The translations under genes and the position numbers were made by a program. The notes under the pieces are model-generated. The model was not told the DNA's origin. It saw only the letters and a list, made by a program, of their open reading frames with translations, and searched no databases. Of a DNA stretch of 64,000 nucleotides, positions 19,932 to 49,428 are shown piece by piece. The stretch covers positions 347,550 through 411,549 of the forward strand of contig CANRCD010000001.1 in the NCBI GenBank assembly GCA_947629005.1. The letters run 5' to 3'. This DNA comes from an uncultured Clostridia bacterium (GTDB taxonomy: Bacteria; Bacillota; Clostridia; UMGS1883). How positions within the stretch are numbered: the first letter of the stretch is position 1; every line of letters starts with the position of its first letter.

Positions 19932-20245
19932 GTTTCTTCCTCCTTGATGATTTCAATAATATATAAAAACATTACTATATAACAATTATACAATAATGCC
20001 TTATTTACTGTAAATATAATTATTTCAGCATAATATATAAGTATTTTCCCTATTTATTGCCGTTATTTTCCTATTTTAAAAAATATTGATGTATAATTAA
20101 ATCAGCCTTTATCCTTAATCCAGCTATTCAATACCGCAAATTTAATATTACATTTTTGAAAAAAATTTCAAAAAACAAATTGACAAAACCGCATTTTTTT
20201 GATAGAGTAAAAGTCGAAAGTGATAAAATATGGGGAAGTGAAATT
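19932..20245. other. AT-rich divergent intergenic region
   Basis: About 310 bp of strongly AT-rich DNA between the minus-strand surface locus and the plus-strand AraC gene. It holds the promoter for 19931 and several A/T tracts that could be regulator sites. A TTG at 20156 keeps the AraC frame open but has no ribosome-binding site. No other gene is seen. Confidence 0.6.
19985..20014 (-). promoter_or_regulatory. Promoter of the alginate-lyase/SLH surface locus
   Basis: On the minus strand TTTACA (20014-20009) and TATAAT (19990-19985) are 18 bases apart, about 50 bases before the ATG at 19931. The adjacent divergent AraC gene makes AraC-type control from this region plausible. Confidence 0.5.
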
Positions 20246-21076
20246 TTGGTGCATAAGTATGTGAATTACATAAACTGTAACCAGACCAACGCCGATTTCA
20301 ATGTTATCCAGTATGGATACCGCCAGTGTGAGCCCGGTTTTTACGAGCCCAAAAACGCGCGCCAGACCTATCTGCTGCACTACGTATACTCAGGAAAAGG
20401 CGTTTTTACAGGCGATGATGTGAGCCACGAGGTCCACGCGGGACAAGCCTTTCTTATAACGCCGGATGTTGTTTCGATTTACGTTGCCGACAGGCTGGAG
20501 CCCTTTGAATACCGTTGGGTGGAGTTTTACGGCCGCAAGGCCGAAACAATGCTCAGCGACAGCGGGCTCTCGGCGGAGAACCCCATATACGACGACGAGA
20601 GCGGCGCCCTCGGCGCGGCGCTCAAGGAGCTCGTCTCGATGGGCAACGCCAACGAGTATGCCCTGACAAGCGCGTTCTGGCACATGGCCGCCTCAATGTG
20701 CTCGCTGACGGAAAGGGCCGAAATACCGCTGGAAAGCTATTTCAAAAAAGCGGTCGCCTATATTCAGGTTCACGTGTCGGACGGGGTGAACGTATCGGAC
20801 ATAGCCCGTCACCTGAACATATCGCGCGGGTATCTGACACTGGTATTCAACAACGTCTGCGGCAAGAGCACAAAGCAGTACATAATAGACTACAAAATAG
20901 ATGTGGCCCGACGGCTGCTGCAAACCTCCGGTATGTCCATGGAAGAAATCGGCGAGTCGATAGGCGTCACCTCGCCGAGCCACTTTTCGAGGCTGTTCAA
21001 GGCCGAGACCGGCATGACGCCGCTCGAATTCCGCCGCCGCCTTGTGCGCGGCTCCGCTCCGGCGTTAAACCAGTAG
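20246..21076 (+). CDS. AraC-family transcriptional regulator (cupin + AraC HTH)
   Basis: About 276 aa. I place the start at TTG 20246 or GTG 20249, because GGGGAAG lies 7-10 bases upstream; an upstream in-frame TTG at 20156 has no such site and would add 30 atypical Lys-rich residues. Residues about 10-150 form a cupin sugar-sensing domain (Y-x-L-x-Y-V-x-x-G-x-G-x-F, then HAGQAFLI and Y-R-W-V-E-F-Y-G). Residues about 168-265 hold the two AraC helix-turn-helix motifs, including VSDIARHLNISRGYL and the signature region ending HFSRLFKAETGMTPLEFR. It is divergent from the alginate-lyase/SLH locus, so it probably activates those genes in response to a breakdown product. The sugar is unknown. Confidence 0.85.
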   Translation: MVHKYVNYINCNQTNADFNVIQYGYRQCEPGFYEPKNARQTYLLHYVYSGKGVFTGDDVSHEVHAGQAFLITPDVVSIYVADRLEPFEYRWVEFYGRKAETMLSDSGLSAENPIYDDESGALGAALKELVSMGNANEYALTSAFWHMAASMCSLTERAEIPLESYFKKAVAYIQVHVSDGVNVSDIARHLNISRGYLTLVFNNVCGKSTKQYIIDYKIDVARRLLQTSGMSMEEIGESIGVTSPSHFSRLFKAETGMTPLEFRRRLVRGSAPALNQ

Positions 21077-21292: not shown

Positions 21293-22600
21293 TTATTTTT
21301 CAAGAGTTTTGTTGAAGGACGCGACCTCGCTGCTCACAACGCCGCGATAGGTTTCAATTATAGTGGCGGCGGGCGAGCCTCCAAGGGCCTCGCCGTCGCC
21401 GTAGTCCATCGTAACGCCGGTGTAAACGTCGTTTCCCTTGCGCTGGGGAACGATACTCGTCATCATAAGGTCGTAGCGGGCAAGCTGCTCAGGAGTGTAA
21501 ATTTTAATGTTCTCCTCGTTGACGCGCCTCTCCTTGACCTCCATTATCATAGCCGCCAGCACAGCCGCGCCCTGCGGGTTGCGGCTGCCGTTGGGTATGA
21601 CGAGGGCAGTGTCCCATACGGGGGTGGTGGGCAGGGAGCCGTCCTCGCTGGGAATAGGCACAAAGTCATGGTTCGGATCGGCCACCTTGCCGCCGTCGCC
21701 GTCCACAAGGCCTATCTGAGCGAGACCCGCCTCAGAGTACATAACTCCGCCCGCTCCAAGCCAGCCGTCGTTGGTCGCGCTGCGCGACTGTATACGCTGA
21801 AGCCTGCGCACAAAATCAAAATATTCGCGCATAATGGGGGTGTCATAATTGCTTTCGAGCAGGCCGTTGCCCTTTTCTATGATAGGTACTGCTCCTCCGG
21901 CATAGCCAAAGTTCTGGTTCTTATACCTCGGTCCTAAGCCCCAGCGGTCGATTTTGCCGTCGAGATTGGTGTCGGAGGTGAAAAAGTCCACGTATTCGAG
22001 GAATTTATCCCACGTCCACTCCCCCGCCTCGAACAGCTCCACAGGGTTGGGGAGGTTATTGTCGGTAAAAGGAGCCTTGTCGAAAGCGATGATGTAGGGC
22101 TGGTTGACGATGTAGTTGGTAAAGCCGTAGTACTCGCCGTCGAATTTGAAGTTGTTCATACTGGCCTCGTCCAGCCAACGGCTGCCGAGGTCATGCTCAA
22201 CGTACTGCGTGACCGGCATGATGTAGCTGTATAGCGCGTATTTCGGGAAGGTGACGTTGCCGTCTACGAACATCAGGTCGCTGACGTCGCCGCCCGCCAG
22301 ATTGCGCTGCATGACCTCGATGCCGGTGTTGAAGCCAATCTCGTTCACGGTCACCTTGCCGCCGTATTTGGCCTCAAAAGCGTCGATGGCCTCTTGCATA
22401 TAAATGTCGCCCGCGGCGATATTCCGCTCAAAGGGCCAGTAAAGATCCAGCGTAACATTCGGGTCCTCGAGAGACTCTACCTCGAGCAGACTCGTCTCAA
22501 AGGGAGCGCTGTGGATGGCCGACGAGCGCGAGCTGTTGGAATATTTGCACGACGACAGCAGCAGCGCCGCAGCCGTCAGCGCGATTACAAGTCTTTTCAT
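21293..22600 (-). CDS. Sugar ABC transporter substrate-binding lipoprotein (family 1)
   Basis: 435 aa; ATG behind AGGAGGAAAAA. A lipoprotein signal ends in L-L-L-S-S-C, making Cys18 the lipid anchor. The rest is a typical family-1 extracellular solute-binding protein: a V-x-V-N-E-I-G segment near residue 100, membrane-distal lobes with many aromatic residues, and W-x-W-D-K-F-L-E-Y in the hinge region. It would capture an oligosaccharide outside the membrane and deliver it to the permeases encoded just upstream (22610-24457). It is the last gene of the nine-gene minus-strand unit. The family is clear; the sugar cannot be inferred. Confidence 0.88.
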   Translation of the reverse strand: MKRLVIALTAAALLLSSCKYSNSSRSSAIHSAPFETSLLEVESLEDPNVTLDLYWPFERNIAAGDIYMQEAIDAFEAKYGGKVTVNEIGFNTGIEVMQRNLAGGDVSDLMFVDGNVTFPKYALYSYIMPVTQYVEHDLGSRWLDEASMNNFKFDGEYYGFTNYIVNQPYIIAFDKAPFTDNNLPNPVELFEAGEWTWDKFLEYVDFFTSDTNLDGKIDRWGLGPRYKNQNFGYAGGAVPIIEKGNGLLESNYDTPIMREYFDFVRRLQRIQSRSATNDGWLGAGGVMYSEAGLAQIGLVDGDGGKVADPNHDFVPIPSEDGSLPTTPVWDTALVIPNGSRNPQGAAVLAAMIMEVKERRVNEENIKIYTPEQLARYDLMMTSIVPQRKGNDVYTGVTMDYGDGEALGGSPAATIIETYRGVVSSEVASFNKTLEK

Positions 22601-22609
22601 TTTTTCCTC

Positions 22610-23548
22610 CTATCCGGTGATGCCCGTGGTTTCTATTCCCTCCACAAAATAGCGCTGAGCGAAAACGTAAAGCAGCACTATCGGCAGCAGGAACAGAAGC
22701 ACCGACGCATAGCTGACGCCCATCTGGAGCGAAAGGTCGCCGCGGGTATCGTTGCTCAGCTGCAGCGTTTCGACGGCGGTTTTCAGCTTAACGGCCAGCG
22801 GACTGTTGCGCGTTGGGAAGAAGGTGCGCGTGAGAGTGTATTCGTTCCAGTGCCAAACCACCGAAAACAGGAAAACCGTTACGGCCGAGGTGCGCACATT
22901 GGGCAGCATTACCGACGTAAAGGTGCGCAGCGGGCCGCAGCCGTCGATTTCGGCGGCCTCCTCCAAAGCGGTGGGTATGTTGCGGAAAGCCTGACGGAAG
23001 ATATAGATGAAAAGCCCGCTCCTGAGCCCCACGCCGAGTATGGAGGGTATCCAGAAGGTGGCGCGGGTATTTATGAGATTAAATGTGTATTCCACGTAGT
23101 TTTCGCCGGTAAAGAGGGCAATCAGCCTGCCAAGGCCAAAAAAGTCGAAAAAGCGGTACTCCATGAAGGTTGGCAGGAAGATAATCTGCGTGGGAATGAT
23201 TATCGTGAGGATTACCAGCAAAAACAGCGGACCCCTCAGCGGGAACTTGAACCGCGCAAAACCGTAGCCCGCAAGAGAGCAGCACACGAGCTGCAAAAGC
23301 GCCGACGACACGCACAGCGTCACCGTGCGCCACAGCGAGGCCGCGTAATCCATATATTCCACCGCGTTTTTCAGATTTTCCAGCGTCAGCGAGCGGGGTA
23401 TCCACACCACGCTGAGGTCGGAGTACTGCTCGGTGGGCATGAAGGCCTTGGACAGGGTTTGCAGCAGGGGATAAAGTATGACGAAGCTCAGGCCGAATAT
23501 CAGCAGAAAGCGGCACAGGCTCCAAGCGTATTTCTTTATTCGTTTCAC
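22610..23548 (-). CDS. Sugar ABC transporter permease, MalG/LacG type
   Basis: 312 aa; GTG start with GGGGGG six bases before it. Six predicted membrane helices. The cytoplasmic EAA loop reads EEAAEIDGCGPLRTFTSVML, the contact with the ATPase subunit, and the N-terminal half carries Y-G-F-A-R-F-x-F-P-x-R as in CUT1-type permeases. Nine bases separate it from the binding-protein gene and twelve from its MalF-type partner, so the three form one importer. No ATPase gene is nearby, as is common for CUT1 systems that share an MsmX-like ATPase encoded elsewhere. Confidence 0.9.
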   Translation of the reverse strand: MKRIKKYAWSLCRFLLIFGLSFVILYPLLQTLSKAFMPTEQYSDLSVVWIPRSLTLENLKNAVEYMDYAASLWRTVTLCVSSALLQLVCCSLAGYGFARFKFPLRGPLFLLVILTIIIPTQIIFLPTFMEYRFFDFFGLGRLIALFTGENYVEYTFNLINTRATFWIPSILGVGLRSGLFIYIFRQAFRNIPTALEEAAEIDGCGPLRTFTSVMLPNVRTSAVTVFLFSVVWHWNEYTLTRTFFPTRNSPLAVKLKTAVETLQLSNDTRGDLSLQMGVSYASVLLFLLPIVLLYVFAQRYFVEGIETTGITG

Positions 23549-23560
23549 TTTTATCCCCCC

Positions 23561-24457
23561 TTAATTTTCGTTTACATAGAACACCTTGCGCGAAGCGAAG
23601 GCGTATACCGCAATGATGATGAGAAACGCGATAAGGCAGTACATCAGCCCGAGGGCGCTGCTGCCGCCGAGGTTGCCGCGCAGGGAGTATTCCTCGTAGA
23701 CGAATTTTATCATCGGATTGCTGACATTAGTGAACGAGTCTATAAGCGAGTATACCAGCACAACGAGGGTTATGGGCGAAATACGCACCCACGTTATCTT
23801 CCAGAATATTTCCCACGCGGTGGCTCCCTCTATCTCGGCCGCCTCGTACTCGCTGCGCGGTATGCTTTGCAGGCCCGACAGGTACAGCACTATCTGAACG
23901 CCGCTCATCCACACTATGTCGAAAATGCGGTTGCTGACCTCGGAAAGGAAGTCGCAAATCGCCTGCGGCAAGCCGGCGTTCATCAGCAGCTCGACCATGC
24001 CGCCGCTCTGGAATACGTACGCGTTTTCGGTGGCGGACGGGTCCATGCCGAAGCTGCGCAGCATTTGTATAACTATGCCCGACGCGATAATCACCGGCAG
24101 GAAGAAGATAGCCCTCGAAAGCGTGCGGCCCTTGAATTTCTGGTTCAGAATAATGGCGATGAACAGGCTGAAAATCACGCAAATCGGCACTTCAATGACG
24201 AACTTCGACAGCCCCGGCCAGAAGGTGGATTTGAAAAAGTATATATCGTCGCGGAATTTATAGATGAAGTTTTCCCAGCCGGTGAACTCGAAATTGAGTC
24301 CGGCGGGGGTTATCAGCACCTTGTGGAAGGAGTAGTAGAACGCCATCACCAACGGGCGGAGGAACAGGAAAATCAGGCCTATCAGCCAAGGCAGCACAAA
24401 CAGGAAGCCCGCGCGCGCCCTGCGCCGCTCAATGGCGGATTTTTTCTTTTTAGCCAT
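23561..24457 (-). CDS. Sugar ABC transporter permease, MalF/UgpA type
   Basis: 298 aa; ATG directly abuts the TAA of the upstream DUF5696 gene and its ribosome site GAGGAGGGAAG lies inside that gene, indicating translational coupling. A short basic N-terminus (KKKKSAIERRRARAG) is followed by six membrane helices. The EAA loop is Y-E-A-A-E-I-E-G-A-T-A-W-E-I-F-W-K-I. It pairs with the MalG-type permease encoded at 22610-23548. Substrate unknown. Confidence 0.9.
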   Translation of the reverse strand: MAKKKKSAIERRRARAGFLFVLPWLIGLIFLFLRPLVMAFYYSFHKVLITPAGLNFEFTGWENFIYKFRDDIYFFKSTFWPGLSKFVIEVPICVIFSLFIAIILNQKFKGRTLSRAIFFLPVIIASGIVIQMLRSFGMDPSATENAYVFQSGGMVELLMNAGLPQAICDFLSEVSNRIFDIVWMSGVQIVLYLSGLQSIPRSEYEAAEIEGATAWEIFWKITWVRISPITLVVLVYSLIDSFTNVSNPMIKFVYEEYSLRGNLGGSSALGLMYCLIAFLIIIAVYAFASRKVFYVNEN

Positions 24458-26626
24458 TTATCTTCCCTCCTCAAACAGGAAGCTCTCGGCCTCCACAATT
24501 TTACCGTCGGCCTCGGCCGGAGCCGAACCGTAGTTCACATATATTACCGCTCCGGAGGAAAAGCCCGTTTTATAGAGCTCGTCCCCGAGCCTTTCATGGC
24601 TTGTTATAGTGTCGCCCGCGACGGCCTCAAGGACGGGCATGGCCTTCCCGCACTGGCCGAGCACCGTGTCGCGGATATAAGCGTAGGGCGCCTCGTCGGC
24701 CGCGACGGCCACGTCGCCCGCACTGACGCTGTAGCACAGCGAGCTGCCGGTTTCAAGCGCCTTAAGCATGGCGCGGCCGGTATCGGGCGTGAGGTTGATG
24801 GGCGGAACACTGAAGGAACGCAGACCGTGCAGCGCTATCTGCGCAAAGGGAACGGAGGCGTCCTCAAGGTCGTAGAGCGTGGCGGAGTCCTCCATAGCGT
24901 AGATGTAGTCCGCCCCTAAAAGAGTATAGCTGTTGCCGCCGCAAACCATGACGTTTTCGGCAAGGGAGGCGGCCTCGGCGTAAATCGCTGAGGTCTGCTC
25001 CCTTGTCAGCGGCGACGTTTCGGAAAAGTCCGAGGGCACGGTCTCGCCGACGGAGCCGAGCGACAGGGCGTCCATACCGCCGTCGCAAAGCCTTTTCACC
25101 GCCCCGAGCGCCTTATCCGGTGCGAGCAGGCGGCAGGGCTCCTCCTCTGTATCCTTTTTACCTGTGTTCACGGCATAGTCGTAAACAAAGGCCGCACTGC
25201 CCGAAAGAGCCGTCACGCAGTCGCCCTGAAGGCTGAGCCCGCCGCCGCTCTTATAAAAGCGCACAAGCTCGACCTCGGGAAAAATTTTAGCGCCGGACGC
25301 CTTGAGTTCGGCGTAACCATTGCCGCCCCCGAGCCTTCTTTCGGGCTCTTCGGCGGAAGGAACGGCAGTCTCCAAGCCGCCCTTCTGCCAGCCGCGCAGG
25401 CGCACGGCGACGTCCTCCACGCCATTTTCCCTAAGGTCCGCTAAGATTTCCGCAGCGGAGGCGAAATCCGTTACGGGCACCACGGTTTTATGCGGTATGC
25501 CGAGGGTGTATTCAACGTCGGCCACGCCGCCTGTCATGCCGAGATAAAGGGGCGCGCCGTTGTTTTCCGGCGTCAGACCGCTCTCCAGCAGGTAATCTCT
25601 GTATGCGGCCGCTAGATCGACATAGCTCAAGCCCGCGCCGCTCATCAGTCGGTATTCTATCCTAAAGCCGCCTTCCTCGGGCACGTTCGCCGAAACAGCC
25701 GTTCGTCCGAGAGTGCTGTCGCCGCCGTAACCGTTAGACACAGTGCGCGAAACGCTGTCGCTCCTGCGCACGGCGAAGCCGGCGTATACATTGTTATAAC
25801 CGGTTTTCGCTCCGGCGGTATCGGCGTAAACGGTGGCCTCGGCGGCGCCCTTGGCGATTATCGCGGCAAAGGCCCTGTCCTGCTCGACGCTGCCGAAAAC
25901 GGGCAGAGCTGCCGTCTTGGGCGTAAGAGAGCTGCTGTCGAGGTTGAGCGACGGATCGCGGCCGTATATCTCCTGCGCGTAGGAGGCGTAGGAAGATTTG
26001 CTGTTATTGTGATTGATTATCGCTCCACTGCCGTCGGGAACCACAATATAGCCATCGCTTTCGGAGCCGGCCGCGCCGAAGTACGGCAAGGGCGATATGC
26101 TCATGAAGCCCCAGTCGTCGCCCGAGATTTTGCCAATCTGCTCCCTGAGGTCGGCAAAGCTGATTTCGGCCGAAAAGCCGTCCTCGCTGAGGGCGTACTC
26201 CACGGAGTGCATCACGTTTTGCTCGGGGTAAAGATACCACACCTTTATGGCGTCGCCGTTTTTTTCAACGCTGACGCCGTCCTTTTGAACCGAGGCCTCA
26301 AGGCTGTTGAGCTCGACGGTGGCCCCGTCGCTTTTGACAAGCGTGACAAAGAAATCGCTTGTGAGGCGGCTCATGTTCACTCCCGATGCCACCGTATCCT
26401 CGGCGGCCGCCTCGGGCACCGAGGCAAACGCCTCGCCGCCAAGCTTATCGGTCACTTTGAGCGAGCCCGTCTCGCTCACCTCCAGAACAAAGCGGCCGTT
26501 TTCTATCACGGCGGCCCCCGCCGAAGCGGGTTTTTCAAGCATTTCGGCGGTCTCGGGCAGACTGCCCTTACCGGCGCAGGAGGCGAGAAGCAGGGCCGCC
26601 ATGGCGGCGCATAAAATCTTTTTCAT
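24458..26626 (-). CDS. DUF5696-family lipoprotein
   Basis: 722 aa; ATG behind GGGGGAGAGAAAA. Lipoprotein signal with L-L-A-S-C, so Cys17 is lipidated. The body matches what I know of DUF5696 (PF18952), a family of uncharacterised extracellular proteins found with sugar ABC transporters in Paenibacillus and Clostridia. Features include SPLPYFGA near residue 175, VPDGSGAIINHNN near 200, and a TIM-barrel-like second half with D-V-A-V-R-L-R-G-W and E-V-E-L-V-R-F-Y. The repeated beta/alpha pattern resembles a glycoside-hydrolase barrel, but I cannot name catalytic residues. A surface-bound glycan-processing or glycan-binding role is inferred from its place between transporter genes. Confidence 0.75.
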   Translation of the reverse strand: MKKILCAAMAALLLASCAGKGSLPETAEMLEKPASAGAAVIENGRFVLEVSETGSLKVTDKLGGEAFASVPEAAAEDTVASGVNMSRLTSDFFVTLVKSDGATVELNSLEASVQKDGVSVEKNGDAIKVWYLYPEQNVMHSVEYALSEDGFSAEISFADLREQIGKISGDDWGFMSISPLPYFGAAGSESDGYIVVPDGSGAIINHNNSKSSYASYAQEIYGRDPSLNLDSSSLTPKTAALPVFGSVEQDRAFAAIIAKGAAEATVYADTAGAKTGYNNVYAGFAVRRSDSVSRTVSNGYGGDSTLGRTAVSANVPEEGGFRIEYRLMSGAGLSYVDLAAAYRDYLLESGLTPENNGAPLYLGMTGGVADVEYTLGIPHKTVVPVTDFASAAEILADLRENGVEDVAVRLRGWQKGGLETAVPSAEEPERRLGGGNGYAELKASGAKIFPEVELVRFYKSGGGLSLQGDCVTALSGSAAFVYDYAVNTGKKDTEEEPCRLLAPDKALGAVKRLCDGGMDALSLGSVGETVPSDFSETSPLTREQTSAIYAEAASLAENVMVCGGNSYTLLGADYIYAMEDSATLYDLEDASVPFAQIALHGLRSFSVPPINLTPDTGRAMLKALETGSSLCYSVSAGDVAVAADEAPYAYIRDTVLGQCGKAMPVLEAVAGDTITSHERLGDELYKTGFSSGAVIYVNYGSAPAEADGKIVEAESFLFEEGR

Positions 26627-26638
26627 TTTTCTCTCCCC

Positions 26639-27286
26639 CTATACTCTCAGCTTTATTTCAAAATATATAGTCTTAAAGAACGAGTATATCTGCGTTGCGA
26701 GCCCCGTCACCAAAATTACCAAAAACGCTATTATCAGCACGCCCAAGGCCGTCAGGACAATGGCTCCCGCCGCGCGGGGCACAGTGTAGTCATGCACGAC
26801 GTAAACCGCCTCGAACAGCAGAAAGGCCGTCCACAAAAGGCCGATGGCGTTCAAGTATGTGAGGAACACGGCCTCGTCCAGCACCATCGCGTGGGAGAGC
26901 CCCACCCTCGCGAGCCCCAGCAGCACATAGGGCAGCAGGGCGTAGGCGCAGGCTATCCATATCTCGCGCAGGCGGCCCTTGCCGTCCATCAACGTGCAAA
27001 AGCACCAGTTCGACACACAGGCTATAGCGAAAAGCGCCACCGTGGTCAGGAGTATTCTCGGAAGATCCACGGGCGATTCAAGCGCGGCCGGGGTTTTGAA
27101 ATCGAAATCCGAATATCCCCACGCCAGTATCCTTTGCAGCACCCACAAGGCCAGTACAACGTTAGCCGCCGTCATAGAATACTTTTTGTTGTTCTTCAAC
27201 TCCCTGTAGCCGTCCACCGGATGGATAAGAATGTAGAGCGGGTAAAGATAAGGACTCATGCCGGCGTAAAAGCCTGTTTTCTGCAT
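26639..27286 (-). CDS. Yip1-family integral membrane protein
   Basis: 215 aa from the ATG at 27286, which overlaps the stop of the upstream NHL gene as TAATG and has GGAGGGGAGGATATA before it; a longer frame reaching 27397 lies inside that gene and is not needed. Five membrane helices, with the short motif Y-P-L-Y-I-L-I-H-P-V-D-G-Y-R-E-L in the N-terminus typical of bacterial Yip1-domain proteins (PF04893). The family's function in bacteria is unknown. Its translational coupling to the NHL-TPR protein suggests they act as a pair, perhaps organising the ABC importer in the membrane. Confidence 0.72.
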   Translation of the reverse strand: MQKTGFYAGMSPYLYPLYILIHPVDGYRELKNNKKYSMTAANVVLALWVLQRILAWGYSDFDFKTPAALESPVDLPRILLTTVALFAIACVSNWCFCTLMDGKGRLREIWIACAYALLPYVLLGLARVGLSHAMVLDEAVFLTYLNAIGLLWTAFLLFEAVYVVHDYTVPRAAGAIVLTALGVLIIAFLVILVTGLATQIYSFFKTIYFEIKLRV

Positions 27287-28689
27287 TATATCCTCCCCTC
27301 CTTCAGCTTGGCCGCCACCAGCTTGGACGCGGCGATTATTATGAGCGCCAGAGCTATCACTCCTCCGAAAATCAGGGCGAAATGCTCCTTCATCCATGTG
27401 CTTCTGAGCTGCTTTTTTACCTCGGAATACTTTTCGGCGGCGGTGCGGCTGCGCTCAAAGTATTCCTTGGCGAGGGCGGCGTCGCCCTCCTCGTAGACCG
27501 CGGCTCCGAGAGCGCCCCATGCGAAGTCGCAGTCGGGATCCATGGTGATTATCTCGCGGAAGATGTCCTTGCTCTCCTTGAAGTAGCCGCTGTTATAAAG
27601 GCGGCGGCCTTCGGTCATTAATTCGCCGAAGCGGGTTTTCTCAAAAACGGTCACGCTGTTTTTCACATTGTCCAGCACCAACACGCGGCTGTCGAGAGTT
27701 TCAACGGCGGTCGGACCGGTAAAGGCGCCCAGCACGTTCCCGCTGCCGCCGAAGGCGCAAATCTGGCTGAGGTTGTCGTCGTACCAGAAAATCTTTCCCG
27801 AGGCCCCGTCGAGAGCATAGCTGAAGCCGTTTTCGTCGGCGGCTATGTCCGCGAATGAGGTCGGGTATGCGCCGGCGTCGGGGTTGTCGCCCCAAGTGCG
27901 GGCCGAAAGCTTGCTCAGTACGTTGTCGCCCATGGGGTTGAGCTTTTTTATCATTTCGTCCTGCTCGGGATTTTCGCTGTAGGACGTCACAGTATAGATA
28001 AAGCCGTCGGCGTCTACGTCGAAATTGGCGAACTCAACGGGAATAAAGTTCTGCATGGTTTCGCGCTGCTCGTCGCTGGCAAAGCGGCGAGAGGCCAGCT
28101 CCATCATGCGGCGGAAGGTCAGCACCACGTCGTTGCGGCCAAAAAAGCCGAGAAAGCTGTTATCCGCGCCTATCATGTACGCGCCCTGAGTGGAATTTGC
28201 CGAAAGCATATATACCGTACCTATGCCGTCAGCCAACACCTTAAGAGGCGTGAAAGCCGCCCCCTCGAGCAGAGGCGAATCGGGGCGCGAGATTTCACGC
28301 ACGGTCTCGCCCTCCGTGTTAATGACATAAATTTTTTCGTCGCCGGCGTGAGCCACATATATGAGCCCGCCCGCGGCGTAAAGGCCGCCGGCCTCGCCGA
28401 GGTCAAAGCCCTCGGGCCTGACCTCGCGGTTTAACGTAAGGTCGTTGTTCAGCACAACAACGCGGTTGTTGCCGCAGTCCAGTATGTAAACGAGGCCGTT
28501 TTCATCGGCGAACACGTCCGACGGAGACTTGAAGTCCCCAATGCCAAGAGCCGTCCCGTTCACCGCGCCCACCGCCGTAAAGCTCCGCGCGGTCGCAACG
28601 GGCTCGCCGAAGCCGTTGTAGCGGTAGTCCGCCGAAGCCGGAAGCGAAAGGCACAACAGCGCCGCGAGCAAAGCAATTATCTTTTTCAT
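27286..28689 (-). CDS. Secreted NHL-repeat/TPR protein with C-terminal membrane anchor
   Basis: 467 aa. I start it at ATG 28689, with AAAGGAG six to eight bases before it; a GTG at 28698 is too close to that site. Signal peptide about 1-20 (ASA). Residues 40-340 form a beta-propeller of NHL repeats (S-P-S-D-V-F-A-D-E-N-G-L-V-Y-I-L-D and later similar blades). Two TPR-like helical hairpins follow (about 350-420), then one membrane helix (about 433-455) and a short basic tail. The propeller would face outside. The gene overlaps its Yip1-like neighbour by one base and follows a permease gene within six bases. A scaffold or sensor for the transport system is possible; no activity is known. Confidence 0.75.
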   Translation of the reverse strand: MKKIIALLAALLCLSLPASADYRYNGFGEPVATARSFTAVGAVNGTALGIGDFKSPSDVFADENGLVYILDCGNNRVVVLNNDLTLNREVRPEGFDLGEAGGLYAAGGLIYVAHAGDEKIYVINTEGETVREISRPDSPLLEGAAFTPLKVLADGIGTVYMLSANSTQGAYMIGADNSFLGFFGRNDVVLTFRRMMELASRRFASDEQRETMQNFIPVEFANFDVDADGFIYTVTSYSENPEQDEMIKKLNPMGDNVLSKLSARTWGDNPDAGAYPTSFADIAADENGFSYALDGASGKIFWYDDNLSQICAFGGSGNVLGAFTGPTAVETLDSRVLVLDNVKNSVTVFEKTRFGELMTEGRRLYNSGYFKESKDIFREIITMDPDCDFAWGALGAAVYEEGDAALAKEYFERSRTAAEKYSEVKKQLRSTWMKEHFALIFGGVIALALIIIAASKLVAAKLKEGRI

Positions 28690-28694
28690 AGCGT

Positions 28695-29552
28695 TCACTC
28701 CTTTATACCGGCGTGAGCCATGGTTTCCATTATGCTCGACTGAGTCACGAGAAAGAGCAGCACCGGCGGTATGAACATAATAAGGCTTGCCGCCGCCGCA
28801 ACGCCGGCGCGGGCTATGCCGCCGGCCTGTATCTGGGCCAGAGCGGTGGGGAAAAGCTTAAGGTTTTCCTTGTAGATGAAATTGCCGCCGGTCATGCCCC
28901 ACATACCTTGAAAGGCAAAAATTATCATTGTCAGCCACGCGGGCTTCACATTCGGCATTACGATCTTCCAGAATATGCCGAACTCGTTCATGCCGTCGAT
29001 ACGGGCGGCCTCGATTATGGAGTCGCTTATCCCCTCCATAAACTGTTTCATCAGGAACAGTCCCATGGTGGAGGCGACCGATGGCAGTATCAGCGCCCAA
29101 TAGGTGTTTATCATGTGGAGCTTTGCCATGATTATGTACTGCGCCAGCCCCAGCACGCCGCCGGTAAACAGCAGAGCCACCGTCACCATTTTAAACAGCA
29201 GCTTTCGGCCGGGGAAGTCGATTTTGGCCAGCGGATAAGCTGCCATCGAGGCTATGAACACGTTGCCGAAGGTGCCGACTACGCTAACGAAAACGCTGTT
29301 GAATACGTAGCGCGAAAAGGGCACCCACAGATTGTTCGTGAGCTGGCCTATGAGACGGAAGTTCTTAAGCGTGGGGTTCACCACCATAAAGCGCGGCGGG
29401 AACACGAAAAGCTCCTCCATGGGCTTAAAAGCCTGCACCACGGTATAGACTACCGGCAGAGCCATAAAGGCCCCAAGGACCGCCAACAGGGTGAACAGGA
29501 TTATATTGCCTCCGAGAGAGCGGTTTACCTTCTTGGTTTTTTTGACTTTCAT
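28695..29552 (-). CDS. Sugar ABC transporter permease, MalG/LplC type
   Basis: 285 aa; ATG behind GAGGGAAG. Six membrane helices and EAA loop I-I-E-A-A-R-I-D-G-M-N-E-F-G-I-F-W-K-I-V. The N-terminal basic stretch (KVKKTKKVNR) and F-x-P-M-E-E-L-F-V-F-P-P resemble LplC/YtcP-like CUT1 permeases. It works with the MalF-type protein encoded 13 bases upstream and the large binding protein before it, forming the second importer of this operon. Confidence 0.88.
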   Translation of the reverse strand: MKVKKTKKVNRSLGGNIILFTLLAVLGAFMALPVVYTVVQAFKPMEELFVFPPRFMVVNPTLKNFRLIGQLTNNLWVPFSRYVFNSVFVSVVGTFGNVFIASMAAYPLAKIDFPGRKLLFKMVTVALLFTGGVLGLAQYIIMAKLHMINTYWALILPSVASTMGLFLMKQFMEGISDSIIEAARIDGMNEFGIFWKIVMPNVKPAWLTMIIFAFQGMWGMTGGNFIYKENLKLFPTALAQIQAGGIARAGVAAAASLIMFIPPVLLFLVTQSSIMETMAHAGIKE

Positions 29553-29565
29553 CTTCCCTCACCCC

Positions 29566-30522
29566 TCAGTCCTTCTCCACCAGCAGAGCGGTTATAAGCT
29601 TGTTCATTATTAGCATTACTATCAGCAGTATGGCCGACAGCGCGCAGGCGTAACCCATGTCGTAGCGCACCGTGCCGTAGTCGTGGATATGCGTCATTAT
29701 GGTGTGTCCGGCGTAGTTGGTGCTTGGGAAACCGCACAGGGCGATGGATATGTTGCCCACAGCGAAGGAGGAGGATATCTGCATTACCGCGGCAAAAAGC
29801 ATTTGCCGCTTCATCGAGGGCACGGTTATGTAGATGAGCTCCTGAAAGCGATTCCTTATGCCGTCTATGGCTCCGGCCTCGTATATGGTCGGATCGACGG
29901 TTTTAAAGCCCGCTCCGAGAGCCAAAAAGCCCGCTCCGAGGCTGAGCCACAGCTGAACGATAATAAGCGCCAGCATTATATACTTTTCGTCGGTGAACCA
30001 TTTTATGGGTTCCTTTATTATGCCCAGATCCATAAACGTCATAAGGAAGGAGTTCACAAGGCCGTATTGGTCGTCGGAGAAGATGTACTGCCATATCATG
30101 TAAAGATTGCCCGAGAGCGACGGCGCGTAGAACACCAGCGTCATAAAGGTGCGCCAGAAGCGCGGCAGGTCGTTGATGAGCCACGCCAGCACAAAGCAGA
30201 GTATGTAGCTGATGGGGCCGGTTATGAAAGCAAAAATTATGGTATTTTTAACGGCCAAAAGGAATATTTCATCGTTGAGGAAAATTGAGATATAGTTGCT
30301 CAGTCCCACAAAGGAAGGCGGCTCGAGCATATTGAAATAGCTGAAGCCCAGCGCTATGGACGCAATCACGGGGATGACCGTGAACACCGTAAACAAAATG
30401 AAGTACGGAGCTATCATGGCATAGCTTATTTTGTTCTGAGCAATGCGCGTTTTAAGACTTTTTGTCTGCTTTAGGGGTTTAGGGAAGAAAACCCTAAAGG
30501 CCCATTTCAGCTTTTCCTTCAT
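29566..30522 (-). CDS. Sugar ABC transporter permease, MalF/LplB type
   Basis: 318 aa; ATG behind GGGAGGCGGAAACAG, overlapping the stop of the upstream gene by four bases (ATGA). Six membrane helices after a basic N-terminal tail; EAA loop Y-E-A-G-A-I-D-G-I-R-N-R-F-Q-E-L. In this loop the usual second Ala is Gly, which still fits the family. Partner of the permease encoded at 28695-29552. Confidence 0.87.
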   Translation of the reverse strand: MKEKLKWAFRVFFPKPLKQTKSLKTRIAQNKISYAMIAPYFILFTVFTVIPVIASIALGFSYFNMLEPPSFVGLSNYISIFLNDEIFLLAVKNTIIFAFITGPISYILCFVLAWLINDLPRFWRTFMTLVFYAPSLSGNLYMIWQYIFSDDQYGLVNSFLMTFMDLGIIKEPIKWFTDEKYIMLALIIVQLWLSLGAGFLALGAGFKTVDPTIYEAGAIDGIRNRFQELIYITVPSMKRQMLFAAVMQISSSFAVGNISIALCGFPSTNYAGHTIMTHIHDYGTVRYDMGYACALSAILLIVMLIMNKLITALLVEKD

Positions 30523-33224
30523 CTGTTTCCGCCTCCCGTCTCAAGGCCAAACTCGGCCCGCTTCTTGGTTATTTCGTAGTTTATCATCTCACACTGGTCG
30601 CTGAGAGCCTTTCGCACCGACTCGCCGTTATACACCACGCTGCGGAAGCCGTTCTGTATGGCGCGGGCGGTGTAGTAGCTGCCGGGTATCTGAGGTATGC
30701 CTTTAACGCTGCTCTGCGCCAGCTCAAGGCTCGCAAGCTGCTCGTCGGGCCACGGCAGCATCGCCATAACATTCTTGTTCGCGGGAGTGAAGCGTGCGCT
30801 CGCCCCCAAGAGCCCCTCGGTTTCGATTCCGTAGCGGGCTTTAACCTCGTCGCTGCTCCACCAATCCATGAAGTCCCACGCTGCCTCGGGGTCCTTGACG
30901 GATTTGAGCATTATCGTGCCGGTGACGGCGCCCGCCTCGCTGCGGTCGAGGCCGCCCTCGGTCTTTGTCGCGGGGATGGGCCGCATTGCCCAGCGGCCGC
31001 TTATCTCGGGTGCGGCGGCGATGAGCTGGTTATACATCTGATACGGCTGAATCGACATTATCAGCTCGCCGCTGCGGAAGCGGGAGTAGAAATCGGTCTT
31101 TACCTCGAAGCCGTAGTTGCGGTAAAGCGAGGTATAAGTGTCCATTGCCTTTATGGCCTGCTCGCTGTCAAGCATGGCGGCAGTCTGTTCGTCGTTGTAA
31201 TAGGCTCCGCCGTTTTGCAGCAGCAGCGTCGGGAACAGGTCCATAGTGGTAATTTGCAGATTGTTTCTTTGTATCACAGGCAGTATGCCGTAAAAGTCGT
31301 CCCACGTATCGGGGGCTTCAATACCGAGATCGGCGAATACGTCGGTGCGGTAAAACAGCATATCGAAAACCTGCGTGTCGGGCAGGGCGTAAACCCCGCC
31401 GTTAAAGCGGAACGGTTCTATGGCCGAAGGGTAAAAGCGCTTTTCCGCCTCGGGATACGTGTCGAAGCCGCTGACGTCGCGCAGAGCCCCGCGCAGGGCA
31501 AAGTTCACGGGCTGGTCCTCCGCCACGAGCAGCGCCACATCCGGTCCCGTTCCGGCAAGAGTGGCCTCGATAAGGCTGCCCTGAACCAGTTCAAGATCGA
31601 CCTGAACGCCCGTTTCGGGGGTAAAGCTTTCGTTTATCAGGTCCTTGAGCACCTGCGCCTGGTCGCGGCCCGCCCCGCTGAGCCATACCTTGACGTTCCC
31701 GCCGCCGCTGACGGCTCCGGTAGAGTCGTCAAACGAGGCGAAAAACCGGCGCACGCTGTACCACATACGGCTTAAAACGCCGGCCTCGGCTTTTGGTACG
31801 GCCACGTCGGGCGAGCGGAGATAGAGATAGTCGAGTTGGAGCTTCTGCTCCTGCATATCTATCACCCAAGTGCCGAGCGCGCTGATGTTGTTTTTGAAGG
31901 CAGAAAGACGGGCGGGTATTTCCTCGGTATCCTCGCAAAGCACTCCGAGCTGCACCGCAAGGGTGTCCACCGCGGAGGTGGCGCTGCCCTTGCCTCCGGT
32001 TACGGCCTGTATGGTTTCAAGCTCCGCCGAAAGAATGTCGCGGTTGCGCTCAAGCGTCTCCTTTAGGCCGTCTATTTTGTCGGCAAGGAAGAAGTCGGTG
32101 TAGCTGTCGGGCGCGACTCCGGTTATCATTATGATTTTAAGGTAAAGGTCGTTAAGCTCCTGTACGCACTCGTCCACGCGGCGCAGCGAATCGGCCAGAG
32201 GGCCCATCGACACCTCGGAGCGGAGCGTATGCTTTCCCTTTTCAAGATATATAAGGCAGGGTTCGCCATCCTCCTCCACCTCGCCTATCTGCCACTCGTT
32301 GTCGTAGCTGAAGGCGCGGCCCGCCATTTCGGCGAAGGGGAGCTCGCCGTCGATGTAAAAATCGCGGCAGTTGAAAAGGCCGTCCTTGTAATTCTGTCTA
32401 AAACGGCAGCCGAGAACGTAACAGCCGCTCTCGGGCGCCTCGAACTCCCATTCCAGCCATTCGCCGGCGTTCTTCCACATATCTCCTCCGCCGGTGTTTA
32501 TGCGTATCTTCGCCGGATCGTTAGGGCCGCCGTTGGCGTCCTCGGTGGCCGAATCAATGCGGTCATAGGTGGGATAGAGCATGGAGGTGGACTTAAGGAC
32601 CGCGTTTTCGGCCTGTATTTTTATAAGCTGTCCGGAGGAAGCCTTTTTGTTCCTGCCCTCGTATTCGGCATAAGGCGCGGGCTCGGCCGCGGGAACTACG
32701 TCCACGCCCAAAAGGGAGAACTCCGCCCCGCCGGAGGTAACGGCCACGGTATTTTCCCCCTGCTCCAGATAGAATTTATACGCGCCGTTATAGCGGCCTG
32801 AGGTATTTTTCAGCGTCTGGCTCTGCTCGGAAAGCACGGCTTGCTGGTGCGGGGCGCGTTCGTTGCCGTTTTCGTCCTCAAGCACGGGGCCCTCGTCCCT
32901 GTGCGGACGGAAAAGCTCGGTCTCGGCGGCCTCGTCGAAGGGATACTCGCCGTTTATCATGAGTCCCGTCAAAATGGAGCGGTTTGTCCTTTCGGTAGCG
33001 GCGTATCTGAGGCTGATATTATAAAGTCCGCTCTCAGGCACATTCACGGTGTATTCAGCCTGCCCCGACCCGAGAAGGTATTCGCCCCTGACGCTCGCCG
33101 AAGCCGTCCCCGCGGGCGCGTCCTCGTAGCGGGACAGATACCCGTCGTAGCTCTCGGCTCCGGCGGACGTGGCCGCCGACGCCAGCGCCAGCGCCGCCGC
33201 GGCTATAATCATGCCCTTTTTCAT
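30519..33224 (-). CDS. Fused carbohydrate-binding modules + ABC substrate-binding domain
   Basis: 901 aa; ATG behind AAAAGGAGAGAGAAAA. Signal peptide about 1-23 ending in AGA; there is no lipobox cysteine. Residues about 35-185 and 205-355 are two beta-sandwich modules like CBM35/CBM6 (V-P-E-S-G-L-Y-N-I-S-L-R-Y and E-A-P-E-S-G-C-Y-V-L-G-C-R). A long helical stretch (about 360-480) follows. Residues about 505-890 form a family-1 solute-binding domain (V-K-V-W-L-S-G-A-G-R-D-Q, then P-D-V-A-L-L-V). It would bind glycan through the front modules and hand oligosaccharide to the permeases downstream. The normal length for such binding proteins is 400-550 aa, so the N-terminal half is an addition. 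First gene of the operon. Confidence 0.83.
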   Translation of the reverse strand: MKKGMIIAAAALALASAATSAGAESYDGYLSRYEDAPAGTASASVRGEYLLGSGQAEYTVNVPESGLYNISLRYAATERTNRSILTGLMINGEYPFDEAAETELFRPHRDEGPVLEDENGNERAPHQQAVLSEQSQTLKNTSGRYNGAYKFYLEQGENTVAVTSGGAEFSLLGVDVVPAAEPAPYAEYEGRNKKASSGQLIKIQAENAVLKSTSMLYPTYDRIDSATEDANGGPNDPAKIRINTGGGDMWKNAGEWLEWEFEAPESGCYVLGCRFRQNYKDGLFNCRDFYIDGELPFAEMAGRAFSYDNEWQIGEVEEDGEPCLIYLEKGKHTLRSEVSMGPLADSLRRVDECVQELNDLYLKIIMITGVAPDSYTDFFLADKIDGLKETLERNRDILSAELETIQAVTGGKGSATSAVDTLAVQLGVLCEDTEEIPARLSAFKNNISALGTWVIDMQEQKLQLDYLYLRSPDVAVPKAEAGVLSRMWYSVRRFFASFDDSTGAVSGGGNVKVWLSGAGRDQAQVLKDLINESFTPETGVQVDLELVQGSLIEATLAGTGPDVALLVAEDQPVNFALRGALRDVSGFDTYPEAEKRFYPSAIEPFRFNGGVYALPDTQVFDMLFYRTDVFADLGIEAPDTWDDFYGILPVIQRNNLQITTMDLFPTLLLQNGGAYYNDEQTAAMLDSEQAIKAMDTYTSLYRNYGFEVKTDFYSRFRSGELIMSIQPYQMYNQLIAAAPEISGRWAMRPIPATKTEGGLDRSEAGAVTGTIMLKSVKDPEAAWDFMDWWSSDEVKARYGIETEGLLGASARFTPANKNVMAMLPWPDEQLASLELAQSSVKGIPQIPGSYYTARAIQNGFRSVVYNGESVRKALSDQCEMINYEITKKRAEFGLETGGGNR

Positions 33225-33271: not shown

Positions 33272-33300
33272 ATTATAATGTAGCGCGGATTTCATTTCAA
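33272..33300 (-). promoter_or_regulatory. Promoter of the nine-gene ABC/DUF5696 operon
   Basis: Minus strand TTGAAA (33300-33295) and TATAAT (33277-33272), 17 bases apart, about 48 bases before the ATG at 33224. All nine genes down to 21293 follow on the same strand with gaps of at most 13 bases or overlaps. Confidence 0.6.
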
Positions 33301-33365: not shown

Positions 33366-33393
33366 AAAAAACGGGCGGCCTCCGGCCGCCCGT
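33366..33393 (-). terminator. Rho-independent terminator of the GH30 gene
   Basis: A perfect 10-bp stem (ACGGGCGGCC / GGCCGCCCGT) with a 3-base loop, followed on the minus strand by six T residues, lies 9 bases past the GH30 stop codon. It separates the GH30 gene from the ABC operon. Confidence 0.85.
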
Positions 33394-33401
33394 TCGTTAA
33401 A

Positions 33402-35663
33402 TTATACGTCCGTTCTTTCGGCTGCGGGCCTTACTCCGCCCTTATACCAGCCGTATACGGAGGTTCTTGCCGCACCGGCGGCAGTCTCGGCGGAAAAATC
33501 AGTCTCCTCGCCGGCCCTCAGTTCCATATCCCTTGACGAAACGGAAAGCAGGCTGCCGTCCTCGGCGTAGGAGGCGCAAAACACGCGGTACCCGCCCGTC
33601 TCGCCGCAGGAAATTTTGCAGCTCAGGCCGCCCGCCGTCACGGCGGCGTCGCTCACCCAAAGAGGCTTGGCGGCCGCCAATCCGTCGCCCTGAGACACTC
33701 TCGCCTCCCAGAGCAGAGCCGCGCTTTCGCTGTCCTCCCCCTGAACGGCGAGGCTGCCGTTAATTACTTCGCCCTCGCCGTAGGTGAGGAAAAGTCCGCT
33801 TTTGCGGTTTTGTATTTTATAGTATGTGTTTCCGTCCTTCAGCACGGGGATAAAGCGCCATTGCTGGTCATTGCTGCCGTTGTTCTGCCACTGAACGACC
33901 CTTGCGCCGGCCTCTGTCGAGCCCGACCATACGCCCATCACCTTCTCGCTGTTAAAGCTTTCCACACGGAACCAGCCGTCCTCTACGAGCCGCAGCACCC
34001 ACTGCTGCTCCACGGCTCCACGGTCGTCCCATGCGAGGAGCTCCGCTCCGTCATTAAAGCTGGCCTGCGACACCGAGAGCGAACGGGTGGGGCTGTTGTA
34101 ATTGAACAGCTTTACCATGGTCGGTATCTCCTCGTCGCCTCCGCCGTCGGTATAGGTGGCGTCCGTATCCGTGTCAAAGCCCTCGGCGCTGCCCTCTATG
34201 GTGAAGGTGTTGACCGAATGAGGCGGAACGACGGGCTTTATTTTGCGGCCGTTAAAATTTATGGCCACGGCCAGATTCATGTTGCTGCTGTTCTTCACTA
34301 TCAGCACATTTTCGCCGTCGGCGTTCTGAAAGGCAATCTTGTCGCCGTAATTACCGTCGGTTTTGATACGCCTCGCGCCCGCGTCCACGTAGGACGAAAA
34401 ATGCTTTGTCACGTAATACATCGGGGTGTATGTCACTTCATTCGTCTGCGAATTCACGATTATGGGGGCGTTCTGGCTCCACACATAAGGATTGGTGTTG
34501 ACGCCGTTTTCGTCGAGCGCCATATTCCAAAGCATATACTGATTCACGCCCGCGTCAAAAAACTCTTTCACGCAGTCGTAGTGCTCCTCGGCGTAGCCCC
34601 ATGTATTGCCGCCGTTGCCGCACTTAGTCTCGGACTGCATCAGCACGTAGCCGTTTTCGCGGTTGGCGCGGTAGATGCGCTTCGTCAGCGGGGCCGACCA
34701 CCACTGCATACCGAGGCCCTTAATCATCTTGCTCGTCACAGGATCGTCAAGAGTGGGATCGGTGCGGTTGGCCTGCGAGTCCGTGAAGGTGCCGAGATAA
34801 ATCTCGGTATCGAGACCGGCCTTTTCAATAGCGGGATAAAGGTAATCTCTTATGAATTCGTTAAGCTGTTCGCCGGTCCACACGCAGGAGGCGTATCCCA
34901 CGTCTATGGTAGGTTCGTTCTGAGGCATGACCATGGATATTTTGATGTTCTCCTCGTCGCGGTAGGCTTCGATGAACTTAACAAAATAGTCCGCGTATGC
35001 CGTCAGCACCTCGGGCGTCCAGATTATCTCGTTGGGCTGGCCGTTGCCGGATTGCTGATCCTCGGGAGTGACGTGCTTATAGGTGGTTTTATTCTTTTTC
35101 ATCCAACTCGGCGGAGACCATGGCGAGGCCCAGAGCTTGAGCTCGGGACGCACCTCCATGGCCGCGCGTATGTAGGGAATGAGATAGGCGCGGTCGCTGT
35201 CAATGGAAAATCGCTCCATGGCGTAATCGGACTCCATACCTTCCGGCAGTTCGTCGTATGACTGGGTGCGGTTCATGGAATAGTCGCTGTTGCCTAAGGG
35301 CAGCCTGCCCGCGCTGAGGCGCAGGCCATCGTCGCCGAAAAGCGCCTCGATTATTTCCGCCCTTTCTTCGTCGGTAAGCTTCCCCATGGCGGCCCAGCCT
35401 CGGTCGTTAAAGCAGCCGCCCCAAGGAGTGGCCGTCAGCGTCTGATATCGCGTAGTCTGGTCAACGTCTATGTAAAGCTCGACGTCATTGTCCCACGCGG
35501 TAGTCATAAGGGGCTCCATTTCTACCCACGGGCTCTGCTCGGTAGTACAGCGCCAAAGCACCGTTTCTCCCTCCTCGGCGGACACGGGGAAGGCCGAAGA
35601 GGCAACAGAGGCCGCGGCGCAAACCGAAATGAGTTTCGTCATAGCTTTCACTTTTCCTTTCAT
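33402..35663 (-). CDS. Secreted GH30 glycoside hydrolase with ricin-type lectin domain
   Basis: 753 aa; ATG behind GGGAGAGAAAATC. Signal peptide about 1-28. Residues about 60-490 match glycoside hydrolase family 30: G-G-C-F-N-D-R near 82, W-A-S-P-W-S-P-P-S-W-M-K near 178, the acid/base in MPQNEP (Glu250) and the nucleophile in MQSETKCG (Glu345), plus the beta-sandwich side domain. Residues about 520-650 form a ricin-B lectin domain with repeated Q-x-W motifs (VEQQWVL, NDQQWRF). A further 100 residues are of unknown fold. GH30 enzymes act on beta-glucans, glucosylceramide-type or xylan substrates with retention; the subfamily cannot be fixed here. It is divergent from an AraC gene and close to xylB, so a xylose-containing polymer is a possible target. 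Confidence 0.85.
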   Translation of the reverse strand: MKGKVKAMTKLISVCAAASVASSAFPVSAEEGETVLWRCTTEQSPWVEMEPLMTTAWDNDVELYIDVDQTTRYQTLTATPWGGCFNDRGWAAMGKLTDEERAEIIEALFGDDGLRLSAGRLPLGNSDYSMNRTQSYDELPEGMESDYAMERFSIDSDRAYLIPYIRAAMEVRPELKLWASPWSPPSWMKKNKTTYKHVTPEDQQSGNGQPNEIIWTPEVLTAYADYFVKFIEAYRDEENIKISMVMPQNEPTIDVGYASCVWTGEQLNEFIRDYLYPAIEKAGLDTEIYLGTFTDSQANRTDPTLDDPVTSKMIKGLGMQWWSAPLTKRIYRANRENGYVLMQSETKCGNGGNTWGYAEEHYDCVKEFFDAGVNQYMLWNMALDENGVNTNPYVWSQNAPIIVNSQTNEVTYTPMYYVTKHFSSYVDAGARRIKTDGNYGDKIAFQNADGENVLIVKNSSNMNLAVAINFNGRKIKPVVPPHSVNTFTIEGSAEGFDTDTDATYTDGGGDEEIPTMVKLFNYNSPTRSLSVSQASFNDGAELLAWDDRGAVEQQWVLRLVEDGWFRVESFNSEKVMGVWSGSTEAGARVVQWQNNGSNDQQWRFIPVLKDGNTYYKIQNRKSGLFLTYGEGEVINGSLAVQGEDSESAALLWEARVSQGDGLAAAKPLWVSDAAVTAGGLSCKISCGETGGYRVFCASYAEDGSLLSVSSRDMELRAGEETDFSAETAAGAARTSVYGWYKGGVRPAAERTDV

Positions 35664-49125: not shown

Positions 49126-49170
49126 GCGGAAAATCCTCCCCTCGTTAAAGTATTTTGGAGCATTTATTAT

Positions 49171-49199
49171 ATTTTACCACGGGCGGGCGTCAAAATCAA
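49171..49199 (-). promoter_or_regulatory. Promoter of the GHL10 gene
   Basis: Minus strand TTGATT (49199-49194) and TAAAAT (49176-49171), 17 bases apart, about 45 bases before the start codon. Confidence 0.6.
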
Positions 49200-49240
49200 C
49201 GCTTTTTGCGGCCGGAAAAGTAAATTTTCTGTGACACGGC

Positions 49241-49269
49241 TTGAAAAAAACATCGAAATGTGCTAAAAT
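49241..49269 (+). promoter_or_regulatory. Promoter of the GH26-like gene
   Basis: TTGAAA (49241-49246) and TAAAAT (49264-49269), 17 bases apart. It gives a leader of about 150 bases before the ATG at 49429, unusually long for this window, and the leader covers the small minus-strand frame at 49284-49382. Confidence 0.55.
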
Positions 49270-49283
49270 AAAAGCCGGTTTGG

Positions 49284-49382
49284 TCAACGATCGTCGTCAG
49301 CGGCGGCAACCAGCGCCATAATGAGCGTACCGAAAATCGACCCGGCCGAAAACCAGAGGATATTTCCTATCATAAACCACAT
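49284..49382 (-). CDS. Possible 32-aa hydrophobic small protein, DUF3789-like
   Basis: A minus-strand frame reads M-W-F-M-I-G-N-I-L-W-F-S-A-G-S-I-F-G-T-L-I-M-A-L-V, then A-A-A-D-D-D-R and stop. The pattern of one Gly-containing membrane helix followed by a short Ala/Asp/Arg tail resembles DUF3789, tiny membrane proteins common in Clostridia. It could start at the second ATG (49373), with GTGAG nine bases upstream. No clear promoter is seen, and it is antisense to the GH26 leader. A chance open frame is possible because it is short. Confidence 0.4.
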   Translation of the reverse strand: MWFMIGNILWFSAGSIFGTLIMALVAAADDDR

Positions 49383-49428
49383 CTCACTTTTTTCTTTTTA
49401 TTTTTTACATAATCGAGGAGAAATAAAC

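Follow-up and report, generated by a model that had tools for sequence, protein, structure and literature searches.

Two ABC importers and three accessory proteins in a single operon

What brings two sugar importers into one operon with three envelope proteins is the question raised by a locus in an uncultured Clostridia bacterium (UMGS1883; NCBI GenBank assembly GCA_947629005.1). We analyzed a 64,000-nucleotide stretch of its contig CANRCD010000001.1 (positions 347,550 to 411,549 of the forward strand), referred to below as the window, in which nine genes encode two pairs of ATP-binding cassette (ABC) permeases (P1 and P2), two substrate-binding proteins (SBP1 and SBP2), and DUF5696, NHL-TPR, and Yip1-like proteins. 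The nine belong to a gene set that is widespread in bacteria, occurring in Paenibacillus, Clostridia, Caldicellulosiruptor, and Treponema that degrade plant fiber, and in which three helper proteins accompany two sugar importers. On balance, we favor the reading that this module is a composite CUT1-type ABC importer that works as one functional unit on hemicellulose oligosaccharides, most likely those of xylan in this organism.

The initial annotation placed the nine genes at 21293-33224, which was borne out when the coordinates were read again; all nine lie on the minus strand. Running from 33224 down to 21293, the genes and the signals at the operon head are as follows.

33369..33395, minus strand: terminator-like hairpin ending the upstream GH30 transcript (12 pairs, then a T run)
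33272..33300, minus strand: promoter-like site at the operon head (TTGAAA-17-TATAAT, sigma-70-type, 11/12 matches)
30519..33224, minus strand: SBP1 (xloE-type), 901 amino acids (Pfam SBP_bac_1; AlphaFold2 [AF2] model; VIA)
29566..30522, minus strand: P1a, MalF-like CUT1 permease (NCBIfam GlcT/UgpA below cut-off; EAA motif; no Pfam match)
28695..29552, minus strand: P1b, MalG-like CUT1 permease (Pfam BPD_transp_1; EAA motif)
27286..28698, minus strand: NHL-TPR protein, 470 amino acids, GTG start (Pfam NHL; topology; family alignment)
26639..27286, minus strand: Yip1-like membrane protein, 215 amino acids (Pfam Yip1, 8.7e-14; TAATG junction; fused to NHL-TPR elsewhere)
24458..26626, minus strand: DUF5696 lipoprotein, 722 amino acids (Pfam PF18952, 1.9e-132; AF2; VIA)
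23561..24457, minus strand: P2a, MalF-like CUT1 permease, axoF-type (Pfam BPD_transp_1; EAA motif)
22610..23548, minus strand: P2b, MalG-like CUT1 permease, axoG-type (Pfam BPD_transp_1; EAA motif)
21293..22600, minus strand: SBP2 lipoprotein, axoE-type, the positionally variable member (Pfam SBP_bac_8/SBP_bac_1; lipobox LLSSC)

The tight junctions described initially were all found in place: 4-base overlaps between SBP1 and P1a (30519/30522, ATGA) and between P1b and NHL-TPR (28695/28698, GTGA), a 1-base overlap between NHL-TPR and Yip1 (TAATG at 27286), and a 0-base junction between DUF5696 and P2a (24457/24458). The start of Yip1 was corrected to 27286, because the listed start of its open reading frame (ORF), 27397, falls within the NHL gene. 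Judged by their sequences, the hairpin and the promoter-like site form a boundary between the operon and the GH30 gene that precedes it, and mark the operon as its own transcription unit.

The gene set recurs across genera and is inherited together

Loci were collected as DUF5696 neighborhoods from relatives of the window's genome, named genomes, and a phylum sample (n = 121), and the fetched ORFs were labeled by profiles built from the window genes. The eight-gene core SBP1-P1a-P1b-NHL-TPR-Yip1-DUF5696-P2a-P2b was present in this exact order on one strand at 74 of the 121 loci. This count is a lower bound, as simple ORF picking skips genes in loci such as L073, L075, L099, and L142; the remaining loci were mostly contig-truncated, rearranged, or contained genes missed by the caller. 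Median gaps between core genes in the 74 intact loci ranged from -14 to +15 bases. Hosts of the module include Paenibacillus, Cohnella, Lachnospiraceae, Butyrivibrio, Mahella, Caldicellulosiruptor, and Treponema, among others.

Across 398 phylum genomes, DUF5696 was detected in 37 and NHL-TPR-Yip1 in 38, with both in 37; a single genome carried NHL-Yip1 only, and none carried DUF5696 only (Fisher p ~2e-51, uncorrected for relatedness among ~20 genera). Because the eight-gene order recurs at 74 of 121 loci and presence and absence match near perfectly in these genomes, chance grouping is excluded. Pairwise distances of all nine proteins were also correlated, at 0.86 to 0.96 (43 loci). The three additional genes therefore co-occur with the permeases almost without exception, and the earlier expectation that such sets occur in Paenibacillus and Clostridia was borne out over a wider range that takes in Cohnella, Caldicellulosiruptor, and Treponema. 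The proposal that NHL-TPR and Yip1 are encoded as a pair also held, as the two form a single fused gene in 20 of the 74 intact loci.

The position of SBP2 was variable: its gene immediately precedes the core in 30 intact loci and immediately follows it in 29, and in the other 15 it was not found right beside the core. Two full sets of binding protein and permeases, as annotated initially, are thus a feature of the window and not of every locus. Some apparent gaps hold a divergent binding protein (L037); in the surroundings of L035, L038, and L041, none was seen for P2. The reading that P2 commonly goes without a binding protein lost support, as SBP2 is usually present and some of the gaps are filled by divergent ones. 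In L035, a DUF4340 protein (4865-6244, minus strand) is encoded downstream of P2b, where the second binding protein is usual.

The module is also multiplied within genomes. A second, diverged copy with the same core order is found in the window's own genome (L004:3117-14857, plus strand), with SBP2 upstream instead of downstream and a 702-amino-acid binding protein at 1008-3116; identity to the window copy is 33% for SBP1 and 23% for DUF5696. Paenibacillus mendelii carries at least three copies, compared with two in the window's genome.

Permeases and a candidate shared ATPase

All four permeases of the window contain the EAA ATPase-docking motif, in P2a as a variant with the terminal Leu-Pro replaced, and three of the four match BPD_transp_1 (P1a is unmatched). 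As annotated initially, Pfam detected no ATPase gene within the nine-gene operon, and only two ABC-ATPase-like ORFs were present among 1805 fetched ORFs, neither of them within a module. A search for the MalK OB domain returned one match in the genome, a complete MsmX-like ATPase of 369 amino acids whose gene lies on a different contig. The two modules account for 8 of the 14 BPD-type permease matches of this genome. The single MsmX-like ATPase presumably serves the permeases of the operon. Its gene (L133:162-1271, minus strand) stands alone and adjoins a pseudouridine synthase gene.

The arrangement resembles CUT1 importers that share an MsmX or MsmK ATPase, such as those of Streptococcus pneumoniae and Bacillus subtilis (cited in PMC8579813), in its MBP-fold binding proteins, its MalF/MalG-like pairs with EAA motif, and its ATPase encoded in trans. 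It differs in having two permease pairs and three conserved accessory proteins per module, and in an SBP1 that is no lipoprotein here and bears CBM-like domains.

The two binding proteins differ strongly

The AF2 model of SBP1 (predicted local distance difference test [pLDDT], 89) contains beta-sandwiches at about residues 43-204 and 242-339, a helical part at 343-499, and an MBP-fold binding domain at 508-897 that matches 3uor with a VIA Z score of 37.6. Fold searches with this model were filled by the MBP-fold domain, and the first two domains were barely covered by fold. By profile, the second beta-sandwich is CBM35-like (CBM35-bearing 5x7g, E 2.4e-7); single-sequence matches to CBM35 domains were weak. 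SBP2 was recognized as a substrate-binding protein by Pfam only.

A lipobox was found in 10 of 80 SBP1 proteins and in 61 of 81 SBP2 proteins, and the SBP1 of the window has a signal peptide without one. Because SBP1 mostly lacks a lipobox, it must be held at the cell by something else, such as a signal anchor or a partner protein, which is one reason for the adaptor proposed below.

A described relative and a rival reading as two separate importers

One member of this family has been described. In the xylan degradation locus of Caldicellulosiruptor (Anaerocellum) bescii, xylan induces xloEFG-X-GH129-axoFGE (Athe_0174 onwards), and growth on this polysaccharide is impaired when msmK is deleted (PMC8579813); transporters of the xylan locus in C. 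saccharolyticus also respond to xylan-rich biomass (PMC5658599). The published XynR operator (PMC12285236) occurs once in our locus L135, where it precedes the SBP1 ORF by 150 bp, and by this operator sequence L135 was identified as the C. bescii locus. Its gene order is that of the window, from SBP1 through SBP2, and the two share the same proteins, an operon without an ATPase gene, and a shared MsmK-type ATPase. In C. bescii, however, X is one fused gene corresponding to NHL-TPR plus Yip1, which are two genes here; the regulator is XynR of the LacI family, where it is probably of the AraC family here; and the neighbors are GH43 and GH10, in place of GH30 and lectin-bearing proteins.

The initial statement that the function of such sets is not known was therefore too strong, as one member is annotated as xylan transporters. 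Likewise, the system is not wholly undescribed; these papers take its two transporters separately and assign no role to X and GH129.

The published annotation, in which XloEFG and AxoFGE are two transporters with different names and substrates and X is a hypothetical gene (PMC8579813), corresponds to the best-surviving alternative: two CUT1 importers that act independently on related oligosaccharides (linear and arabinose-substituted xylo-oligosaccharides, for example) and have only their operon in common. DUF5696 and NHL-TPR/Yip1 would then be helpers that work separately at the cell surface. The dissimilarity of SBP1 and SBP2 would suit this arrangement, as would the rearranged loci L148-L150, which are split into an NHL+Yip1-DUF5696-P2a-P2b block followed by an SBP1-P1a-P1b block. 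These rearranged loci nevertheless keep all parts, and at no locus with an intact neighborhood was one permease pair found alone with the accessory genes. The 15 loci in which SBP2 is not directly adjacent, and the three in which none was seen near P2, also argue against two self-sufficient importers, and we consider this alternative rather unlikely.

DUF5696 adopts a GH129 fold, and the window copy lacks both catalytic residues

The AF2 model of DUF5696 (pLDDT 91; predicted template modeling score, 0.91) aligns to GH129 over residues 38-722, comprising a beta-sandwich, a TIM barrel, and a C-terminal beta domain. The fold is shared over the whole length, about 560 residues, with VIA Z scores of 30.5 over 559 residues against NagBb of Bifidobacterium bifidum and 29.6 over 567 against ZgGH129 of Zobellia. 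Foldseek (E 7e-31) and a sequence profile (E 1e-12) likewise led to GH129, at 14-16% identity to GH129 structures. Pfam PF11308 (GH129), a narrow model, gave no match at E 0.01 for DUF5696 of the window or of L033, and a scan of 299 phylum genomes gave 0 matches, with the positive control also unmatched.

D486 was taken as the nucleophile of ZgGH129 because the title of PDB entry 8rzk names a D486N mutant for the Michaelis complex. With a profile built on the C-terminal half of DUF5696, no usable PDB alignment across the catalytic residues was obtained; the catalytic positions were therefore transferred by means of model strands 4 and 5, stand-alone DUF5696 relatives, and a profile-profile alignment of module and stand-alone members (E 2e-47 over 521 columns). 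All seven stand-alone proteins that were alignable there (L049:1087-2790, L050:7004-8761, L154, L155, L156, L157, and L160) have (Y/F)(I/V)D at the nucleophile and SE or TE at the acid/base; they may represent an uncharacterized active GH129-like family in Clostridia. Among 81 module members, by contrast, Asp is present at the nucleophile position, after strand 4, in 43; Glu is present at either acid/base position, after strand 5, in 9; and both are kept in 5. The window copy has neither, with S525 at the first position and C562/G563 at the second, and it does not keep the three His and one Asp by which wild-type NagBb differs from its quadruple mutant (5wzq). Because these residues are lost, the DUF5696 of the window is probably no glycosidase, a conclusion that we hold with good though not full confidence. 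The conserved residues W413, N415, D533, N565, Y567, and H600 follow the barrel strands, and on the model this suggests that a ligand pocket remains.

The alternative is that DUF5696 is an active extracellular GH129-like glycosidase that trims the substrate before import, giving the importer its own enzyme. Its fold, the GH129 annotation in C. bescii, the pocket-like conserved residues, and the frequent nucleophile Asp would fit such a role. The Ser at the nucleophile and the missing acid at the acid/base position in the window, the loss of the NagBb residues, and the rarity of the full pair among module members, unlike the stand-alone relatives, make it unlikely. A broader version of our own conclusion, that the catalytic pair is absent family-wide, was dropped when the profile alignment moved the acid/base by one residue and five members were found to keep both; on sequence grounds, the degenerate site is claimed for the window copy and most relatives. 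The glycan-processing part expected initially was accordingly not borne out. A literature search on DUF5696, and on NHL/Yip1 with a transporter, found no paper in the library covered, and DUF5696 is here given a fold and a role open to testing.

NHL-TPR and Yip1 as a candidate adaptor

Structure models were computed for DUF5696 and SBP1; for NHL-TPR, predicted topology gives a signal peptide, an NHL propeller and TPR part outside the cell, and one C-terminal membrane helix, followed by the membrane part of Yip1 (PF04893, 52 bits against a curated cut-off of 28.6). We infer that the pair acts as an adaptor. That it is instead a sensor reporting transport or glycan occupancy to a regulator is improbable. 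An extracellular propeller, a single membrane helix, and the polytopic portion of Yip1 might suit a receptor, and AraC-type regulators adjoin the module in the window's genus. Against this, Pfam detected no signaling domain (kinase, diguanylate cyclase, or HTH) in the window pair or the C. bescii fusion, and the module regulators vary by lineage (XynR of the LacI type in C. bescii, here probably one of the AraC type).

Substrate and proposed mechanism

Two neighboring genes point to xylan as the likely substrate in this organism.

33402..35663, minus strand: GH30 glycosidase with ricin-type lectin domains, a separate transcription unit (Pfam)
36660..38111, plus strand: xylulokinase XylB (TIGR01312, 524 bits; cut-off, 380)

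Matches of the GH30 protein include the xylan-active GH30 structures 7n6h, 5cxp, and 8idp. Elsewhere, same-strand flanks of the module encode GH26 (12/88), GH30 (6/88), and GH10 (4/88), as well as GH113, GH53, GH43, GH130, GH9, and GH16. Because flank families differ between loci, the substrate appears to vary between module copies, being mostly hemicellulose. The link between the transport unit and glycan breakdown proposed initially is supported by these flanking endo-glycanases and by the published finding that xylan induces the homologue in C. bescii (PMC8579813).

In the mechanism that we propose, extracellular glycanases would set free oligosaccharides that are long or branched. Two proteins would hold the glycan at the membrane: SBP1, which has a CBM35-like domain, and the DUF5696 lipoprotein, whose GH129-derived barrel is probably non-catalytic. 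SBP1 and SBP2 would deliver oligosaccharide to P1 and P2, both driven by the shared MsmX-like ATPase encoded elsewhere. NHL-TPR and Yip1 would form one membrane-anchored adaptor keeping binding proteins and permeases together. Uptake of hemicellulose oligosaccharides is very likely, and action as one functional unit is likely. Xylan induction and the need for a shared ATPase are carried over by analogy from the C. bescii homologue (PMC8579813); physical contact of the parts, coupling of the permease pairs, the holding role of DUF5696, and the substrate in this organism are what we infer.

Several points weigh against this composite importer. The C. bescii authors treat the permease pairs as two separate transporters. 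Co-inheritance and the correlated distances are due in part to shared phylogeny. With the nucleophile Asp kept in 43 of 81 members and both catalytic residues in 5, some DUF5696 relatives may be active. The GH30 protein of the window also matches glucosylceramidases, which makes xylan less certain as the substrate of the system; the differing flank families mean that the substrate must differ between copies.

A stronger version is offered more tentatively, as a possibility that we rate below even: the eight core proteins would constitute one physical import machine, in which NHL-TPR/Yip1 bridges the two permease heterodimers, the CBM-bearing binding protein and GH129-derived pseudo-glycosidase feed the bridged permeases, and long or branched hemicellulose chains are passed from permease to permease. 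If true, such a machine would be the counterpart in Bacillota and Treponema of the SusCD complex of Bacteroidota and a new architecture for ABC import. The likeness is one of analogy only, consisting of surface glycan-holding proteins coupled to an importer and of many substrate-specific copies. The present system is of the ABC type, no homology is claimed, and Pfam detected no TonB-dependent transporter or SusD homologue among the nine operon genes.

Uptake of hemicellulose fragments in Gram-positive fiber degraders has so far been ascribed to separate three-part ABC transporters. The loci compared here show a constant module of eight or nine genes that is present in several copies in some genomes and lies beside different endo-glycanases, and the two C. 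bescii xylan transporters would be best studied jointly with their unexplained X and GH129 partners.

Other genes of the window

Convergent to the operon end is a gene that is likely its local regulator; an AraC-family gene also adjoins the module in the congeners L042 and L044.

20156..21076, plus strand: AraC-family regulator (Pfam HTH_18, AraC_binding)

Positions 47899-50997 encode a GHL10 protein and, in divergent orientation, a GH26-like protein whose gene lies 16 kb away; at other loci, GH26 is the family found most often in the flanks of the module. Beyond the regulator, three large proteins that have ricin-type lectin or laminin-G-like domains and no recognized catalytic domain are encoded on the minus strand at 1461-8240 and 16368-19931. 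Between them lies a gene for a 2699-amino-acid surface protein (8255-16354, minus strand) that carries SLH domains at its C terminus as well as fn3 and DUF1349; Pfam gave no match over most of its length.

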